A DNA stretch of 64,000 bases from Lachnospiraceae bacterium. GTDB taxonomy: Bacteria; Bacillota; Clostridia; Lachnospirales; Lachnospiraceae. Made by a program: the position numbers and the translations under genes. Below are positions 15,000-22,025 of this stretch, piece by piece. The stretch is from NCBI GenBank assembly GCA_015057025.1, contig SVFD01000003.1, positions 186,001 to 250,000 of the forward strand, written 5' to 3'. Under the pieces are notes generated by a model, which was given only the letters and a program-made list of their open reading frames with translations, did not search any database and had not been told where the DNA came from. The stretch's first letter is position 1. Each line of letters opens with the position of its first letter.

Positions 15000-16334
15000 A
15001 TGGGGAATATAGATAATCGTTTTATGAAGTATAGAAGACTTAAAATGTATCGAAGGATATTCTGTTTTTTATTGGGTTTTAGTTCGGTAATTGCGTTTGC
15101 TCTTTTTTATGTTTATGAGTGGAATCGTATGCCGGAGGTGATTTATGTGGAAGCCAATAAGGAGCAGGTACTTGATTTTGGAGTTCCGGCAAGGGGTGAA
15201 TTGTATCTTGAAAGTGTGGAAGTAGGAAATTACGGAGAGCCGATTATAGAGAGTATTAGTCATTCTTCTGCAGGTTCCCAAGCCTTGAAAATAGATTTTT
15301 CAAAAGAAATTGTTTTAAGCGGAGCTTCAGATGAGGTGTATTGCGCTGATTTAAAATTGTTCGGTATTTTACCTTATAAGACCGTTCGAATTGAAACTTT
15401 GGATACTTATGAGGTAATACCTTCCGGTCAGACTATCGGTATTTATGTCAAAATGGATGGTATATATGTAATTGATATCGGAGATTTTCAATCTTCTCAA
15501 GGGCATACTGTGATACCTTGCGAAGGAAAATTGCAGTCAGGTGATTATATAATTGCCGTTAATGGAGAAAAGTTAAGTCGTAAAAAAGATTTTACGGAGA
15601 TAATTCAAACAAGTAACGGAGAAGATTTGCATCTTACAATAGTTCGAGAAGAAAAAGAACTGCAGGTAACTGTTACTCCGGAGATGGCCTTGGACGGACA
15701 ATATAAAATCGGGGCATGGATCCGAGACAGTTTACAAGGTGTAGGAACAATGACATTCGTAGATACAAAAGGCGAGTATGCTGCTTTGGGACATGCGGTC
15801 AGAGATGCAGATACAAATGAATTGGTATCAATATCAAACGGTGCACTTTATGAAACATCAATTGTATCTATCAGTCGGGGAGAAGAGGGAGAGCCCGGAG
15901 AAATTACCGGATTGATACAATATGATAAAGATAAAAAAATCGGTAATATTGAAGGAAATACTATAAGCGGAATTTATGGAGATGTGACTAAAACGGAATG
16001 GCTGGAAGGAAATATTGAACAACCCATGGAAATTGCGTTAAAGCAGGAAATAGAATTAGGAGAAGCCTATATCATATCTGCTATTACGGGAGAATGTGAG
16101 AAGTACGAGGTGGAAATTATTGATATAAATTATAATAATACAGAGAAAAAAAGAGCTTTGACAATTGAAGTTACAGATGAAAAACTTTTAGAACTGACAG
16201 GAGGAATTGTACAGGGAATGAGCGGCAGCCCAATTATACAGAATGGGAAGATTATCGGTGCTGTGACTCACGTATTGGTAAATGAACCGGAGAAGGGGTA
16301 TGGGATTTTTATTGAGAATATGTTGGAGCATTGA
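15000..16334 (+). CDS. spoIVB: SpoIVB peptidase with a replaced C-terminal tail
   Basis: Serine peptidase (family S55) secreted from the forespore that triggers pro-SigK processing. N-terminal transmembrane segment (about residues 17-42), PDZ domain (about 140-215) and the peptidase domain with His265 in LGHAVRD and Ser410 in GMSGSP. ATG 15000 is chosen over the upstream TTG because TTGGGAGA precedes it and the TTG lies in the recN terminator. The last residues (GYGIFIENMLEH) are not followed by the probable native terminator; a second copy of the 3' end with a different tail ([12 protein letters not shown]) plus terminator lies 4.7 kb downstream. The C-terminus therefore appears to have come with the island. 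Confidence 0.93.
   Translation: MGNIDNRFMKYRRLKMYRRIFCFLLGFSSVIAFALFYVYEWNRMPEVIYVEANKEQVLDFGVPARGELYLESVEVGNYGEPIIESISHSSAGSQALKIDFSKEIVLSGASDEVYCADLKLFGILPYKTVRIETLDTYEVIPSGQTIGIYVKMDGIYVIDIGDFQSSQGHTVIPCEGKLQSGDYIIAVNGEKLSRKKDFTEIIQTSNGEDLHLTIVREEKELQVTVTPEMALDGQYKIGAWIRDSLQGVGTMTFVDTKGEYAALGHAVRDADTNELVSISNGALYETSIVSISRGEEGEPGEITGLIQYDKDKKIGNIEGNTISGIYGDVTKTEWLEGNIEQPMEIALKQEIELGEAYIISAITGECEKYEVEIIDINYNNTEKKRALTIEVTDEKLLELTGGIVQGMSGSPIIQNGKIIGAVTHVLVNEPEKGYGIFIENMLEH
16219..16306 (+). repeat. Left 88-bp direct repeat (attL-like), inside spoIVB
   Basis: Positions 16219-16306 are identical to 20979-21066 over all 88 bases. Sequence diverges abruptly on both sides. The repeat starts inside the codons of the catalytic GMSGSP motif and ends about nine codons before the stop. 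Confidence 0.93.
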
Positions 16335-16348
16335 GAAATGTAGCAGAC

Positions 16349-16398
16349 ATAAGGAAAGTCGATATGGGAGCTTGCTCGCAATATCGACTTTTTCTTAT
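16349..16398 (+). terminator. Terminator-like hairpin after spoIVB
   Basis: Inverted repeat of about 17 bp (from 16349 and from 16381) around a GC-containing loop with GCTTGCTCGC, followed by TTTTT within the descending arm. Likely ends spoIVB transcription. It also forms the variable arm of a structured repeat that recurs at 33507-33658. Confidence 0.65.
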
Positions 16399-16455
16399 GG
16401 CTGATATATGGCGATAGCCAAACACTGAGGAAAAGCAAGGCTTTTTCGAAGTGGC
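16349..16455 (-). repeat. Structured intergenic repeat, copy B (inverse orientation)
   Basis: Read on the - strand this region shares an ordered set of short blocks with 33507-33658: GCCAC..TTCG, a CTTTTC block, CTCA.TG, TGGCT.TCGCCATAT, then a GTCG..GCAAGC..CGAC stem and a TTTC.TTA.. tail. The stem sequence differs between copies but the fold is kept. Family unnamed. Confidence 0.5.
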
Positions 16456-16534
16456 TTGGACAGAAAGATTAAGAAAAATAGGGACGAGTTATGTTGGGAG
16501 CAACAAAAATTCGCCCCTTTTTATGGAGAAGAAA

Positions 16535-16774
16535 ATGAATAAATTTATATCATTATCAAGTTTAAAAGATACAACAGGAATTGTTGAATTATGTAATAAG
16601 GCAGGCGAGCCTGTAGTGGTAAACAGAAATGGAGAACTTAAATTAGTTATTATGACAAAGGATATTTTCAATGAATATTTTCGGATTAGAAAACCAAACG
16701 GAGAATTAGATATTGAGAAGGAGTATTTTGGAATAAAAAATCAGAATTATGAATTAGAGGCAATCACGATTTAA
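16535..16774 (+). CDS. Phd/YefM-like antitoxin-type protein
   Basis: A 79-residue protein with the Phd/YefM N-terminal pattern: SLSSLKDTTGIVELCNKAGEPVVVNRNGELKLVIMTKDIFNEY, in which a helix-strand core with GEPV..V..NG is typical of the DNA-binding half. ATG 16535 follows GGAGAAG; a longer in-frame start at 16451 runs through the structured repeat and is not supported. No RelE/ParE/Doc-type small toxin follows. The nearest gene product with the Doc (Fic) fold is the Fic protein 260 bp downstream. Could be an orphan antitoxin or the regulatory partner of the island. Confidence 0.7.
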   Translation: MNKFISLSSLKDTTGIVELCNKAGEPVVVNRNGELKLVIMTKDIFNEYFRIRKPNGELDIEKEYFGIKNQNYELEAITI

Positions 16775-16930
16775 AAACTAAAAAATCCGGCAGAGATTGT
16801 CAGAATATGTGAAAACATCGATATGCTGTTTCCTATCATAAGAAATGGTTATGATGAATTGTATGTAATGAGTTATAGGGAGTACATGAGAAGAAAAGCA
16901 GTTATATCGTTTGTGAAAAAAACTTTTTGA
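16775..16930 (+). pseudogene. Second Phd-like domain, in frame after a stop
   Basis: Directly after the TAA at 16772-16774, the same frame stays open for 51 codons and reads LKNPAEIVRICENIDMLFPIIRNGYDELYVMSYREYMRR, matching the same Phd/YefM pattern (L.N...I...C......I..NGY.EL.VMS...Y). It has no start codon or ribosome site before the pattern begins. Either a decayed tandem copy, or a two-domain protein split by a nonsense change. Confidence 0.55.
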
Positions 16931-17019
16931 AACAAAACACAGAAACAAATACCCTTATTTCAAAAACTTAATGACTTTTTGAAATAAAAGGGGTATAATG
17001 AAGGTAGTTATTTCAAAAA
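16924..17019. promoter_or_regulatory. Four-site operator-like array upstream of fic
   Basis: The 12-mer TTATTTCAAAAA occurs at 16955-16966 and 17008-17019; its reverse complement occurs exactly at 16976-16987 and with one mismatch at 16924-16935. Orientation alternates, and site centres are 31, 21 and 32 bp apart, close to whole helical turns. Site 3 abuts the -35 and fills the promoter spacer and site 4 overlaps the ribosome binding site, as expected for a repressor. A natural candidate regulator is the C-terminal winged helix of the Fic protein or the Phd-like protein. Confidence 0.7.
16971..16999 (+). promoter_or_regulatory. Probable SigA promoter of the fic operon
   Basis: ATGACT (16971-16976), 17-bp spacer, perfect TATAAT (16994-16999). 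Start of transcription expected near 17006, about 27 bp before the fic ATG. Confidence 0.7.
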
Positions 17020-17032
17020 GAGGTGAAAATAT

Positions 17033-18172
17033 ATGAATCGAGCAGGAATATATGTTGACAATTTAACAGGAGAGGCTACTTATCAATCTTTTAAACCAAA
17101 TCCATTACCACCTGTGCCGGAACTTGAAATGGATGAGGAGATTGTAAAACTTTTAATAGATGCCAATAAACAACTTGTAAAACTTGATACTGCATCACAG
17201 TTAATTTCCAATGCGGATTTGTTTATATCAATGTATGTTAGAAAAGAAGCATTAATTTCCTCACAAATAGAAGGCACACAGTGTACTCTTGATGATGTAT
17301 TAGATCCAGAGGTGGAAGCAAATGCAAATCTTGATGTTTCAGATGTTATTAATTATGTGAAAGCAACACAGTATGCATTGAATCGTCTGGAAAGATTGCC
17401 GTTATGCTGCAGATTAATAAGAGAAATACATGAAGTATTAATGGAAAATGTCCGCGGACAGGATAAGACTCCGGGAGAGTTTAGACATTCTCAAAATTGG
17501 ATTGGACCTGCCAATTGTTCATTAAAGGATGCAAGATATATTCCCCCAAATGTAGAAGATATGCAAAACGCAATGTCTGATTTGGAGAAATTTATTAATG
17601 AAAATGTGGATTATGATCCATTAATTCGTGTTGCATTGATTCATTATCAGTTTGAAACAATACATCCGTTTTTGGACGGCAACGGAAGAATCGGAAGACT
17701 TTTGATACTCCTTTATCTGATGGAGCAGGGATTGCTTGCGAAACCGGTCATTTATATATCTTATTTTTTGAAAAAAAACCAGATAGAATATTATGATCGA
17801 ATTAGTGAAGTCAGAAGAAGCGGTAACTTTGAACAATGGATAAGATTCTTTTTGGAGGCATTGAGTAAAGCAGCATCGGATTCTTTGGAAGCAATTCGTC
17901 AGCTTTCTACGTTGCATGATACAAATATAGAAAAACTTCCGAAAACGACTAGAAGTAAAGATAATTTAAGAGCTGTGTTTGATTATATCGAGCAGTATCC
18001 GATTATTGATATTAAGAGAACTGCTAAGGAATTAGATATTAGTTATAATACAGTGGCTACGGCTGTGAAGAAGCTTGTGGGACTTGGCATTTTGCAGGAA
18101 ACAACCAATGCTGCGAGAAATAGAGTGTTTGCGTATGAGGAGTATTTAGGAATATTGAGGAAGGATACGTAA
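17033..18172 (+). CDS. Fic family AMP-transferase with C-terminal winged helix
   Basis: Fic proteins usually transfer AMP from ATP to hydroxyl groups of target proteins. The 379-residue product has a Fic_N region (about 1-90), the Fic core with the complete motif HPFLDGNGRIGR (His211) and a C-terminal winged helix-turn-helix (about 310-379, with IDIKRTAKELDISYNTVATAVKKL). An N-terminal inhibitory motif S76-x3-E80-G81 (SSQIEG) marks it as class II, i.e. self-inhibited. AAAGAGGTG site before the ATG. First gene of an apparent four-gene operon; the next gene starts 4 bp after its stop. Class II Fic-wHTH proteins are often autoregulated, which fits the operator array. Confidence 0.9.
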   Translation: MNRAGIYVDNLTGEATYQSFKPNPLPPVPELEMDEEIVKLLIDANKQLVKLDTASQLISNADLFISMYVRKEALISSQIEGTQCTLDDVLDPEVEANANLDVSDVINYVKATQYALNRLERLPLCCRLIREIHEVLMENVRGQDKTPGEFRHSQNWIGPANCSLKDARYIPPNVEDMQNAMSDLEKFINENVDYDPLIRVALIHYQFETIHPFLDGNGRIGRLLILLYLMEQGLLAKPVIYISYFLKKNQIEYYDRISEVRRSGNFEQWIRFFLEALSKAASDSLEAIRQLSTLHDTNIEKLPKTTRSKDNLRAVFDYIEQYPIIDIKRTAKELDISYNTVATAVKKLVGLGILQETTNAARNRVFAYEEYLGILRKDT

Positions 18173-18176
18173 GAAT

Positions 18177-18935
18177 ATGAGAGAAAAATATACAAATTCT
18201 ATGAAAAAGCATACAGAAAATGCATTTCATAAAGTTAATGATGATTTCAAGATTCAAATAGGAGATATAGAAAGTATTTTAGACTTAGAAGAGGATATGC
18301 TGGCTACATATTGTGCAATTGCACAATTGGATGGAAGAATATTAAATGAATTTACACAAATGGCAATTGTTATTATTAGTAAAAATATAGATTATATTTA
18401 TGCTTCATTTAAACTGACACAGATAGGACAATATGCTGCTGCACGTACAATTTTTAGAAATATATATGAATCAGTAGTAATATTAAAAACGGTTTCTATA
18501 AGTGGTAGCCAACAATTATTATCAGATTGGATGAATGGAAAAAATATAAATATGAGGAAAAAGGTTTTTGAAAAAATACATTCTCCTCAATCTGAAGCAA
18601 TGAAACTCTTGTGGGAAGATTTGTGTAGATTTTGTCATGGAACAGTTTTTTCACGTCAACAATCACATGATTATAATAAGATTAAAGTGGCTATAGAGTA
18701 TAATTTTGTGGTACTCGAAATGCTTTTATATATGAACTATCATGTTTTGAATAGATATGTGTTTTCAGACAATATGAAAGCTATGGCGGATAGAAATATT
18801 TGTACTTTTGAGGATATGGATACAAAGGAAAAGAGAGAGGTGCTACGTCTGAAATTGAAGGAAAGTAAACGTAGTTTATCTAAAGAACCACAAAAAGTAT
18901 TGACTGATTTTTCTAAGGTTTGGAAATATACCTAG
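18177..18935 (+). CDS. Unrecognised helical protein, possibly DUF5677-like
   Basis: A 252-residue predicted soluble, mostly helical protein. No family is certain. The segment QYAAARTIFRNIYESVVILKTV followed about 60 residues later by LCRFCHGTVFSRQQSHDYN resembles the helix-plus-His layout of DUF5677-type proteins, some of which are found near defence genes. It starts 4 bp after fic, with the ribosome site GAGGAAGG inside the end of fic, so translation is probably coupled. Highly AT-rich with frequent ATA codons, unlike the core genes nearby. Function unknown. Confidence 0.75.
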   Translation: MREKYTNSMKKHTENAFHKVNDDFKIQIGDIESILDLEEDMLATYCAIAQLDGRILNEFTQMAIVIISKNIDYIYASFKLTQIGQYAAARTIFRNIYESVVILKTVSISGSQQLLSDWMNGKNINMRKKVFEKIHSPQSEAMKLLWEDLCRFCHGTVFSRQQSHDYNKIKVAIEYNFVVLEMLLYMNYHVLNRYVFSDNMKAMADRNICTFEDMDTKEKREVLRLKLKESKRSLSKEPQKVLTDFSKVWKYT

Positions 18936-19009
18936 TAATACATATAAAAGCTTTTCTAATTTAAAAATGATGTAATTATTTTGCTGTGTAATTAAAACTG
19001 GAGGTAAAT

Positions 19010-19699
19010 ATGCCATTTACAAATGAAATAAAAAAGGAAATATATAAATATTGTGAAAATCATTTGGCAGATGATGCTTGGTATGAAAATCAATTTGACT
19101 TTATTTTGGATGAAGCTATGAAAAAACGTTTAATTAGTGAATTTAAGGCGACTCGTTTTGCTTATAAATTATACGAAGGACTTGAAGCTGAGAATGAAAA
19201 TCTATTGTTTGAAGTTAGAAATCAAATTATAAGTTATGCAACAATATATGAAGCTGTTATTCATTATGTTTTATACAACTATTATCAGGATACAGAACAG
19301 TTTCATGATATGACACATCATACGATTCCAATAAAAATATCGATTCCTGAAGATAAACAAAAAAAACTTCAACAAGAGCTTCTGCATGATAATAAAGAAA
19401 TAGCAACATTTTATTATGGAGAAAAGAAGAAGGAAGAAAAACAAATTAGATTCGATGATAAATGTATTACGGCAAAGAATATAGGGCTTTTGCATGATTT
19501 TGAAAATAGTAAAGGTCAAATAATTGATTTGCCGTCAGAGATTATTGAATTTTATTGGTATCGGAATGGGATTCATTTAATAGCCGAACAAAGAAAAGGA
19601 ATTCAGTATGAGTTAGAACTAAGCAAAAGAGCTTATAGAAGGATGCAACCATTTATTGAACAGATTAAAAGTAAATTAGTAGAAGATGGAAAGTACTAA
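19010..19699 (+). CDS. Unrecognised protein with RNxIH motif (HEPN-like?)
   Basis: A 229-residue protein without a certain family. N-terminal helical half (FAYKLYEGLEAENENLLFEVRNQIISYATIYEAVIHYVLYNYY), a charged linker, then a C-terminal helical part with YRNGIHLIAEQRKGIQYELELSKRAYRRMQPFIEQIK. The R185-N-G-I-H189 spacing is Rx3H, one shorter than the common HEPN Rx4-6H, but RN.IH is seen in HEPN-like proteins. AGGAGG-type site (GGAGG) before the ATG. Same operon direction as fic; the next gene begins within 20 bp of its stop. Confidence 0.75.
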   Translation: MPFTNEIKKEIYKYCENHLADDAWYENQFDFILDEAMKKRLISEFKATRFAYKLYEGLEAENENLLFEVRNQIISYATIYEAVIHYVLYNYYQDTEQFHDMTHHTIPIKISIPEDKQKKLQQELLHDNKEIATFYYGEKKKEEKQIRFDDKCITAKNIGLLHDFENSKGQIIDLPSEIIEFYWYRNGIHLIAEQRKGIQYELELSKRAYRRMQPFIEQIKSKLVEDGKY

Positions 19700-19718
19700 A
19701 AATTGTATGGAGAAAAAC

Positions 19719-20861
19719 ATGGATTCGATTTTAATGGAGCTTAAGGAAACTTTAAAAGACTTTAAAATTATTAATGAAAAAACATATAAAGGAAATGAAA
19801 ATGTAAAAATTGATTATATGGAGAATCCGTTAAACCCTAACTTATTGTCATATTGTTTTAAAAATGTTTTGGGGTTTGAAGTTTATTTTAGAATAGCGGA
19901 AAAAGTGAATTATATTATAGAATTTGATTATAAAAGTACTTATGCAAAGGCTGAGCATAAGAAGATGAGTTATGCTATATATGTTGATGAAAAGTACAAA
20001 ACGGAGATTATTGAAATACTGGAAAACGTAAAGAGTTTATTGGAACAAATATTTACGAGTATAGGAGAACATGCTTTGTTAAATAATAAATTCTATATGA
20101 AAAATGAAGCACCTGAGTATTTTGAAAAAATAAATTTTTTAGAGAATAAAATAGAGCAGTTAAATAGAAATAAGAATAATATTTCTAAAAAACTTAATGG
20201 ACAATTTGATGAAATTAAACAAGAAGGATATATTGTTTGGCGTCCTAAGGGAAGTGACTATTTACATAAGTTAAATTTGGAACTTATATATAATATTGAG
20301 GCATATATCGACACATTTTATTCGGCATTAGAACATGTTTTGACGCTTTTATTTCCATTTACAAATAATTTTTTGAGTGAACACTCATATTATAAATCAT
20401 TTATAAGAAATACAAGATGGGCTTGGGATGCTAAAGTTAATGATGTATGTAAAAATATTATTTCAGACAAATTATTCCAAGAATTAAGAAGGGTTAAAGA
20501 AGTTTATAGAAATCATAATGCGCATGGTGGCTTTTCAAGAGAAATGATGGCATATGTACAGATAACTGATTTTGGTGCCTATCCTTTGTATATTGGAAAA
20601 AATTATTTAAAAGGGTTTCTTGATAATGATGAAGATAAAATTTCGTATGAAATGTATGAGCGCATAAAAGAAATTTTTAATGAATTTTGGACAATGTTAA
20701 AAAAGAACTTTGAAATACCAATGATGATTATTGATAGTGGACTGCCGATTCCTGTTGATACCAAAATATATATGGAAAATATAAAAGGTAAGGATGATGC
20801 TGAGTTGTTTATACAGAAGCAGTGGTATGATATAGATAATCAATCTAATATGGATTGGTGA
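19719..20861 (+). CDS. Unrecognised protein with RNxxAH (HEPN-type) motif
   Basis: A 380-residue protein, no certain family. Charged N-terminal half with a coiled-coil segment (INFLENKIEQLNRNKNNISKKLN), then a helical domain containing LRRVKEVYRNHNAHGGF, where R264-N-x-x-x-H269 is a textbook Rx4H motif of the HEPN ribonuclease superfamily. The start at 19719 has GGAG six bases upstream; an alternative ATG at 19686 would overlap the previous gene by 14 bp. Very AT-rich. As the last gene of the fic operon, it is a candidate RNase effector of a defence or toxin-antitoxin-like cassette (inference). Confidence 0.75.
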   Translation: MDSILMELKETLKDFKIINEKTYKGNENVKIDYMENPLNPNLLSYCFKNVLGFEVYFRIAEKVNYIIEFDYKSTYAKAEHKKMSYAIYVDEKYKTEIIEILENVKSLLEQIFTSIGEHALLNNKFYMKNEAPEYFEKINFLENKIEQLNRNKNNISKKLNGQFDEIKQEGYIVWRPKGSDYLHKLNLELIYNIEAYIDTFYSALEHVLTLLFPFTNNFLSEHSYYKSFIRNTRWAWDAKVNDVCKNIISDKLFQELRRVKEVYRNHNAHGGFSREMMAYVQITDFGAYPLYIGKNYLKGFLDNDEDKISYEMYERIKEIFNEFWTMLKKNFEIPMMIIDSGLPIPVDTKIYMENIKGKDDAELFIQKQWYDIDNQSNMDW

Positions 20862-20877
20862 AAAATATAGTCATTAC

Positions 20878-20904
20878 TAAATTTTGTGCAATGCACAGAA
20901 TTTA
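20878..20904 (+). other. Hairpin after the last island gene
   Basis: A 12-bp inverted repeat (one T-G pair) around an AAT loop, 17 bp after the stop of the preceding gene. No T run follows, so its role as a terminator is doubtful; it may end the transcript by processing or mark the element end. Confidence 0.4.
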
Positions 20905-20978
20905 GGAGTGGTATCGTCATTTATGGAGAAAAACATCAGAATATGCAGAAAATTGTTGCTCCTTACTTGACACGAACG

Positions 20979-21066
20979 TGAGCGGCAGCCCAATTATACA
21001 GAATGGGAAGATTATCGGTGCTGTGACTCACGTATTGGTAAATGAACCGGAGAAGGGGTATGGGAT
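20979..21066 (+). repeat. Right 88-bp direct repeat (attR-like)
   Basis: Identical over 88 bases to 16219-16306 within spoIVB. On its left it is preceded by non-spoIVB sequence; on its right it continues into a different but plausible spoIVB tail. Confidence 0.93.
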
Positions 21067-21100
21067 ATTCCTCGAATCTATATTAAATCATGGAAATTAA
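20979..21100 (+). pseudogene. Displaced native 3' end of spoIVB
   Basis: Encodes only the last 39 codons, beginning at the catalytic SGSP and ending [14 protein letters not shown] before a TAA at 21098-21100. It lacks any start or N-terminal part. The terminator directly behind it indicates that this is the original chromosomal end of spoIVB, separated from the gene body by the island. Confidence 0.85.
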
Positions 21101-21124
21101 GAAGGCCGGTTGGCCTTCTTTTTT
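21099..21124 (+). terminator. Intrinsic terminator (original spoIVB terminator)
   Basis: Perfect 9-bp stem AAGAAGGCC/GGCCTTCTT with GGTT loop, followed by T's. It overlaps the stop codon of the spoIVB remnant. Confidence 0.88.
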
Positions 21125-21239: not shown

Positions 21240-22025
21240 ATGATTTATAGTAAAAAGAAAATGGAAGAAATTGTAGGCGAAATTACAAAACTGGTCGCTG
21301 AGTATTCTGAATATCCGAAGGTGAAAAAAGGTGTTAATATTGAAAGTACTGATAAAATTATTTGGTCTAAGGGCAGGATAGAACCTTTTTGTACCGATTA
21401 TATAACAGAGATAAATGATAATACCATTATTCCAAGAAAGTTACTAAAAAAGGAACCCAAAATCAAAGATTATGTATCAGTACATCATATGGCTGATAAT
21501 ACCCCTGTCTATTCAAAGTTTTATAGTGATAAGGATAACGTTATATATGAGCAATTTTTCATAAAAAAGAAAAATTTGCTTATAGGTGCATTGTTCCATT
21601 ACAGTGACAAAAAGTTGTGTAGGTTAACAGTTGAGCATTTTGATGAAAAAGGTCGTCCAATCGAGTTTGACCGTTTTTCGCTGGATGGTGAATCAAAGCG
21701 AAAGCTTGACAGTATATTTTATACTTATGATAACGACAGAATTATTAAGGCTGAATCAATATTCAGTTTAGATATTGATCGTGAATTGAAATTATACGAT
21801 GATGAGCTATATGTAAAGATTGGTTTAATTCTAGATCCATCAATAGAAAGAATGAATCCTGAAAGTGTTGAAACATTTGATTTTAATTATAATGACAAAA
21901 TAGAATTAGACTCTTATACAAGAACTGCATTCTCGTATGGAAGGGTTATAAGTCACAAATGGAAAATCAAGAAAAGTATTATAAAAAGTTACATAGAATG
22001 TGGTATTGGGTGGCTTGGTAAATAA
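21240..22025 (+). CDS. Hypothetical protein
   Basis: A 261-residue protein of unknown family; no signal peptide or membrane segment. A middle stretch (HFDEKGRPIEFDRFSLDGESKRKLDSIFYTYDNDRIIKAE) has an alternating beta-strand look with Y/F-D-x-N/D-G patterns reminiscent of repetitive beta proteins or some immunity proteins, but no assignment is justified. Excellent GGAGG site; a TTG at 21222 would overlap that site and is rejected. Lies just outside the island boundary between two terminators, so it is a single-gene unit. Confidence 0.7.
   Translation: MIYSKKKMEEIVGEITKLVAEYSEYPKVKKGVNIESTDKIIWSKGRIEPFCTDYITEINDNTIIPRKLLKKEPKIKDYVSVHHMADNTPVYSKFYSDKDNVIYEQFFIKKKNLLIGALFHYSDKKLCRLTVEHFDEKGRPIEFDRFSLDGESKRKLDSIFYTYDNDRIIKAESIFSLDIDRELKLYDDELYVKIGLILDPSIERMNPESVETFDFNYNDKIELDSYTRTAFSYGRVISHKWKIKKSIIKSYIECGIGWLGK

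Follow-up and report, generated by a model that had tools for sequence, protein, structure and literature searches.

Introduction

Serine recombinases place mobile elements within genes in several described systems. Streptococcal integrative and conjugative elements (ICEs) carry triplets of serine integrases and target mutT, traG, and hsdM (PMC4701971). In Bacillus cereus ATCC10987, the element gin occupies gerE, whose product acts in the mother cell (PMC5595907). SPbeta and skin excise only in the mother cell and are hence retained in spores (PMC4191935). Here, we describe a 64,000-nucleotide stretch of a Lachnospiraceae genome, referred to below as the window (G000:C12:186001-250000; genome of 2.65 Mb, 97.9% complete), in which an AT-rich island without a recombinase lies between an intact spoIVB gene and a second, headless spoIVB end. 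The best overall explanation, to which we assign a probability of about 0.7, is that spoIVB contains a serine-recombinase attachment site and that the island is a recombinase-less relative of the elements using it, which, by itself or through the event that placed it, supplied a second spoIVB tail.

The large elements that we found at spoIVB in related genomes resemble the streptococcal triplet ICEs in having a run of three serine recombinase genes at one end, in being inserted within a gene, and in having very short direct repeats (PMC4701971). Unlike spoIVB in the window, however, mutT, traG, and hsdM are disrupted, and the section of that article on these ICEs describes no gene-restoring islands without recombinases (PMC4701971). 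The gin element, likewise not a phage, also has three serine recombinases and resides in a sporulation gene (PMC5595907). By contrast with the whole gene of the window, it interrupts a mother-cell gene, which is made continuous again during sporulation, and its recombinases are encoded by girA-girB and a distant girC; the comparison is one of descriptions rather than of homology between GirABC and the trio (PMC5595907). The SCCmec and ECC elements, which also have large serine recombinases, occupy the 3' region of the conserved gene rlmH, with variable cargo and inverted repeats at their attachment (att) sites (PMC6222049). They differ in using CcrA/CcrB rather than a trio, in their target, and, in ECC, in having direct repeats of about 50 bp, whereas the window lacks a recombinase (PMC6222049). 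Like an SCC-type cassette, the window island occupies the 3' region of a conserved gene and leaves that gene intact, and by analogy the supply of a second tail appears comparable to the way in which SCC cassettes keep rlmH whole. Finally, skin and SPbeta are serine-recombinase elements in sporulation genes as well, but they are phage or phage-like, interrupt mother-cell genes, and excise only in that cell (PMC4191935). Sporulation gene-intervening elements split their host gene; spoIVB is whole in the window and is split in five of the ten genomes searched. The open-licence literature yielded no report of spoIVB as a site of such elements, of spoVB with a serine recombinase, or of a prophage with a serine recombinase in a sporulation gene of Lachnospiraceae.

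Structure of the spoIVB locus

Two copies of an 88-bp sequence, at 16219-16306 and 20979-21066, were identical at 88 of 88 positions and lay 4760 bp apart, with abrupt loss of identity at both edges. Among the matches listed (20 of 27 families), the runner-up direct repeat in the window was only 32 nt long at 72% identity, which excludes a chance origin of the 88-bp repeat. The left copy (forward strand, as are all features below) is in frame within a full spoIVB gene at 15000..16334, with its ATG at 15000 and its stop codon at 16332-16334. The gene, called from its open reading frame (ORF) and family match, encodes a peptidase S55 protein that matched NCBIfam TIGR02860 with 362.6 bits (cut-off 305.25), has the catalytic motif GMSGSP at the TG dinucleotide described below, and ends in IENMLEH. 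The right copy lies in a headless ORF of 40 amino acids (20978-21100). This spoIVB tail (20979..21100) comprises the repeat and a LESILNHGN ending, and the end of the tail runs into a perfect terminator (21092..21124) in which a stem, AAGAAGGCC/GGCCTTCTT, is arranged as AAGAAGGCC-GGTT-GGCCTTCTT and followed by a T run.

A sequence-only reading of this DNA had described the identical repeats, their divergent edges, the in-frame left copy, and the headless right copy with its terminator, and the comparison bears out each of these. It had also described the island as AT-rich. Indeed, the G+C content inside was 0.26-0.35, as compared with 0.36-0.45 in flanking 500-base windows, but low values extended beyond the right repeat to about 22.5 kb and hence past the end that had been proposed for the island. 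The reported lack of a recombinase also holds, in that searches of Pfam, PADLOC, and PHROGs returned no recombinase match for any of the five island proteins. This lack is explained by relatives at the same site, which carry three large serine recombinases. The same searches revealed no relaxase or other transfer genes in the island.

Elements with three recombinases at spoIVB

Ten genomes were searched with full SpoIVB. In five of them (G006, G188, G344, G347, and G348), the match to the SpoIVB head stopped at query residue 411, and all five cut heads continued into the same left end, TTCACGAGTTATAATGGGAGCAACA. In the other five (G181, G282, G326, G345, and G346), spoIVB ran to its end. The insertion point of the large element is the dinucleotide TG in the spoIVB codons for GM^SGSP. 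At the right end of the element, the order is third recombinase, P arm (CTTGACAC-N5), TG, and spoIVB. Specifically, three large serine recombinase genes lay directly 5' of the headless tail in G188, whose trio was examined for domains, and in G181; the trio also directly preceded the arm-TG-spoIVB tail at loci L083-L085. In G006, the DNA before the tail matched the end of the third recombinase of G188 and the arm that follows it.

A scan with this third recombinase yielded 22 loci, seven of which ended in an arm-TG-spoIVB tail: L082 (the G188 locus), L083, L084, L085, L101 (the G006 locus), L102, and L103. The contigs of L101-L103 hold only the last 22-23 residues of the recombinase, and L083 and L084 were used for the junction only, as the full spoIVB tail in their bins differs from the contig tails and these contigs may therefore be misbinned. 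The host spoIVB tails differed among the seven loci while the arm was common to them. The remaining 15 loci held relatives at 25-45% identity. The third recombinase of the trio elements related to the island matched the CcrA and CcrB models far under their cut-offs. A viral collection yielded eight loci, four of which (L162-L165) ended in an arm-NTG-spoIVB tail, and a search of it with the junction pattern found three contigs, L162-L164. The left junction pattern had no match in this collection. All four of L162-L165 are IMG/VR contigs and look like pieces of such elements attached to spoIVB.

On either side of TG, the large element has the arms P and P', which are inverted copies of each other, as is expected of a serine-integrase attP. 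Based on these junctions, elements with three adjacent large serine recombinases probably use the 3' part of spoIVB as their attachment site in gut Lachnospiraceae. In G344, a MobA/VirD2 relaxase is located about 14 kb from the left end, which makes it probable that the element is integrative and conjugative; the two ends of that element are on different contigs, and its middle is outside the sequence seen.

These elements refine two proposals made from the window alone. Integration had been placed at the 3' end of spoIVB: the event does appear to be site-specific and to keep the frame, but the crossover lies in the catalytic GMSGSP codons, 116 bp before the gene end. Restoration of the ORF had been regarded as accompanying this integration. 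The small islands do keep the gene whole, but the large element splits it, so restoration is not due to integration as such.

Two side observations concern the trio elements. A small ORF of 78-82 amino acids was present just 5' of the trio in two distant elements (L083:554-790 and L077:408-656); it is a candidate directionality factor, and the L083 copy had no NCBIfam match. At about position 11641 of L088, another trio element appears, from a motif seen by eye, to end inside a serine recombinase gene.

Junction register and arm copies

We aligned 19 junction rows on the core. In 15 of these (the window, G001, G326, G006, G188, G181, L083, L084, L085, L102, L103, and L162-L165), TTGACA occurred at a fixed distance 5' of TG, and SGSP or SGAP codons occurred 3' of it. 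Thus, the P arm of the window, TTGTTGCTCCTTACTTGACACG plus AACG at the right end of the island (20953..20978), has the same distance to TG as in the other rows of this set. Three rows from G282 had a variant arm with TGACAATCAC before the same TG, and in the last row, from G020, the arm preceded GA. The pattern TTGACAC-N5-TG-spoIVB was found in five of 397 family genomes; the reversed control pattern was absent among the matches listed.

A copy of the P' arm (ACGAGTTATGTTGGGAGCAACA) is present at 16484..16505. It shared 20 of 22 bases with the left end of the large element and was unique in the window, with 0.01 expected by chance using a search pattern that left the two differing bases open. 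Elsewhere in the same genome, the P' string occurred at one further place, with three mismatches, and no second copy of the P arm was found at up to three mismatches. P' lies 150 bp beyond the stop codon of the complete spoIVB and does not adjoin the core, whereas P touches TG at the headless tail. The spacer between spoIVB and P' (16335..16483) has a strong hairpin (fold -50.8 kcal/mol). It is related to the spacer that follows the second G001 tail: their alignment scored 54, whereas 500 single-base shuffles reached at most 45. In a reverse-strand self match, a long imperfect palindrome was seen at 16338-16409, directly 3' of spoIVB.

The 88-bp repeat starts with the core TG (16219-16220) and extends to one base past a proposed second core, GA (16304-16305). 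Together with the spoIVB head, the left copy makes up an intact attB. The possibility that the whole repeat is a single long att site was rejected, as the junctions of other hosts have only the TG core in common and their spoIVB side varies.

Other restored loci

A SpoIVB query yielded full copies plus short end-only matches in G001 and G006, both of the same genus as the window. Using the 38-residue tail, we searched 299 family genomes: it was present in 191, with more than one match in five of these (G000, G168, G181, G282, and G326). In G001, full spoIVB is followed by a DUF4143 ATPase gene (matching PADLOC PDC-S01), a gene for a helix-turn-helix protein, the P arm, and a headless tail. In G326, about 10 kb with matches to HEC-02, NsnA, and NsnC lies between full spoIVB and the P arm with its headless tail. 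The cargo of both loci is thus defence-like, and no P' arm was found in either of these restored loci. In G282, three headless tails stand in a row at the end of one contig and full spoIVB is near the end of another, so the join between them crosses a contig break. Contigs of other genomes also often end at these tails, as might be expected if the layout were an assembly artefact at the repeat. Such an artefact is nevertheless highly improbable, since the same layout with other cargo was found on single contigs in independent genomes (G001 and G326). Among the loci fetched, none had the same repeat without an island, the arrangement that the sequence-only reading had associated with a simple local duplication.

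How the second tail may have arisen

When compared over 105 bp, the paired tails within a genome were 91% identical in the window, 96% in G001, and 96% in G326. The tails of G282, the third of which was left out of the identity table, were 78-84% identical to each other, no closer than tails of different genera. Within the 88 bp, the window copies agreed with each other at 88 of 88 positions, as compared with 74 for G001, 79 for G020, 67 for G006, and 62 for G019. In the window, G001, and G326, the duplication ends close to the stop codon. The left tail of the window looks typical of the genus, and the right tail adjoins the conserved downstream AMP-ligase gene. It had been expected that relatives would have an empty site with the ending of the right tail. 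This was not borne out: among 42 distinct tail endings in the fetched loci, LESILNHGN occurred in the window only, and IENMLEH was the common ending. Neither an element-borne tail nor duplication repair, described next, cleanly predicts this distribution.

The main rival explanation is repair by duplication. In this scenario, a recombinase-less element first cut spoIVB at TG. A later unequal or illegitimate exchange with an uninterrupted copy would have made the gene whole and left its tail in duplicate, and no element would ever have borne a tail. The close relationship of the two tails within the window, G001, and G326 agrees with such repair, as do the persistence of P' 150 bp past the restored stop and the genus-typical look of the left tail and its ending. 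However, chance breakpoints do not predict a duplication that stops near the stop codon in all three genomes. Moreover, the tails of G282 are as different from one another as from those of other genera, and the restored layout recurs across several genera. We consider duplication repair rather unlikely and tentatively favour element-borne tails with later homogenisation.

Alternatively, the island may have arrived by ordinary homologous recombination as a block with flanking spoIVB and downstream DNA, the att arms being relics of an old insertion in the donor. The stretch between the last tail and the AMP-ligase gene differs among the window, G001, and G006, and the ending of the right tail does not occur elsewhere in the genus sample, both of which are consistent with a transferred block. 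A site-specific insertion in some donor would still be required, however, and the start of the repeat exactly at TG would be left unexplained. We regard this explanation as unlikely.

The best reading of the island is as a putative non-autonomous relative of the three-recombinase element, carrying Phd/Fic-like genes and three unassigned genes. The recombinases of a large element, acting in trans, would have placed it at TG. The island, or the event that placed it, would have supplied the second spoIVB tail that completed the cut gene, and the two tails would later have been homogenised or exchanged over the 88 bp between the two cores. Islands of this kind can pile up because the gene stays whole and attB is regenerated. 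The window island may now be stuck, because P' no longer adjoins the left core and its genome has no close relative of the trio. Six places in that genome have a Recombinase domain, with at most 28% identity to the trio over at least 200 residues and one piece of 44 residues at 36%. In the genus, one of 31 genomes (G015) matched the third recombinase at 1e-60, with 31-32% identity. The Recombinase domain had no match in G282.

A second core is proposed from one junction. In G020, the arm stands, with unchanged spacing, before GA and the closing stretch of spoIVB. This junction is 86 bp beyond TG and continues into a near copy of the genome's own tail end and then the start of the terminator belonging to it. 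GA may be a second attachment core here; alternatively, the G020 junction is an internal deletion in a tail at the first site. The span of the window repeat, described above, speaks for a second core, as do the G001 tails, whose identity extends from TG to slightly (a few bases) beyond GA.

Several observations weigh against the proposed origin of the island and its tails. Of the five hosts of the junction pattern, four had been used to build it and the fifth was G266, from which L083 comes; the search thus brought in no further host. The left boundary departs from a normal attL, as P' is not beside the core in the window and is missing from the other restored loci. With an element-borne tail, the island would have P-TG-tail as its site, and serine integrases would not ordinarily be expected to act on such a hybrid. 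No present-day helper is apparent, given the low identity of the recombinases in the island's own genome. As for the second core, no GA junction other than that of G020 was found in 172 loci or the viral collection, and the G326 tails differ at four places before GA and at none after it until past the stop codon, which misfits a boundary at GA.

spoIVB as a target and sporulation

In Bacillus subtilis, SpoIVB is a protease secreted by the forespore (PMC12251134). Because it is a forespore protein in that species, excision restricted to the mother cell could not rescue spoIVB. An element that excised in the forespore would itself be lost. Elements at spoIVB are therefore expected to prevent spore formation, to disappear, or to make the gene whole again. 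The forespore role of spoIVB may thus favour gene-restoring islands.

Of 18 genomes tested for spoIVA, 12 had the gene (G000, G001, G006, G019, G181, G188, G266, G282, G326, G344, G345, and G347), among them four of the five hosts with cut spoIVB; it was not found in G004, G005, G012, G015, G020 (74% complete), or G348. In the genus, 20 of 25 genomes lacked a SpoIVB match, and several of these also lacked spoIVA. Sporulation is therefore probably being lost in this genus, although the window strain keeps both spoIVB and spoIVA.

Tentatively, spoIVB could be a cassette-chromosome-like hotspot of gut Lachnospiraceae. The trio elements would open its catalytic codons, and recombinase-less defence cassettes would use the same site and bring their own spoIVB end, as an evolutionary answer to landing in a forespore gene that mother-cell excision cannot save. 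With these data, the targets of serine-recombinase elements come to include a forespore signalling protease, and the att arms, the core, and the recombinase genes are defined. The data also open the question of whether elements persist in a forespore gene through excision, through loss of sporulation, or through a replacement gene end.

The arm-like sequence of distant trio relatives ends at a spoVB-like gene at L091 (about 9870), L092 (about 14924), and L098 (about 11612). In these loci, spoVB appears cut: the match covers the first 279 or so of the 488 positions of the SpoVB model and is below the cut-off, as expected for a cut gene. Given these relatives, sporulation genes may be favoured homes for such elements.

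Island cargo and neighbouring genes

Five genes were predicted in the island. The first (16535..16774) encodes a Phd/YefM-like antitoxin, a weak assignment below the Pfam cut-off (E 0.0029). The second (17033..18172) encodes a SoFic-like Fic-domain protein that matched PADLOC SoFic (1.4e-122) and Pfam Fic_N and Fic and fell under the NCBIfam SoFic cut-off. The third (18177..18935) encodes a weakly DUF5677-like protein (Pfam E 1e-4, below the cut-off), to which no function was assigned. The last two encode proteins of 229 amino acids (19010..19699), without an informative family match in Pfam, PADLOC, PHROGs, or NCBIfam, and of 391 amino acids (19686..20861), without any family match in these four. 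Judging from family names only, the cargo probably serves anti-phage defence.

The Phd-like gene is followed by the apparent end of a second such gene (window 16535-16930), and in G019 a gene start similar to that of the Phd-like gene lies after spoIVB. Between the headless tail and the AMP-ligase gene of the window is an AT-rich ORF of 261 amino acids (21240-22025) with no family match. The equivalent place, between the last tail and the AMP-ligase gene, holds a glutaminase-like gene in G006 and an ATPase gene plus another gene in G001.

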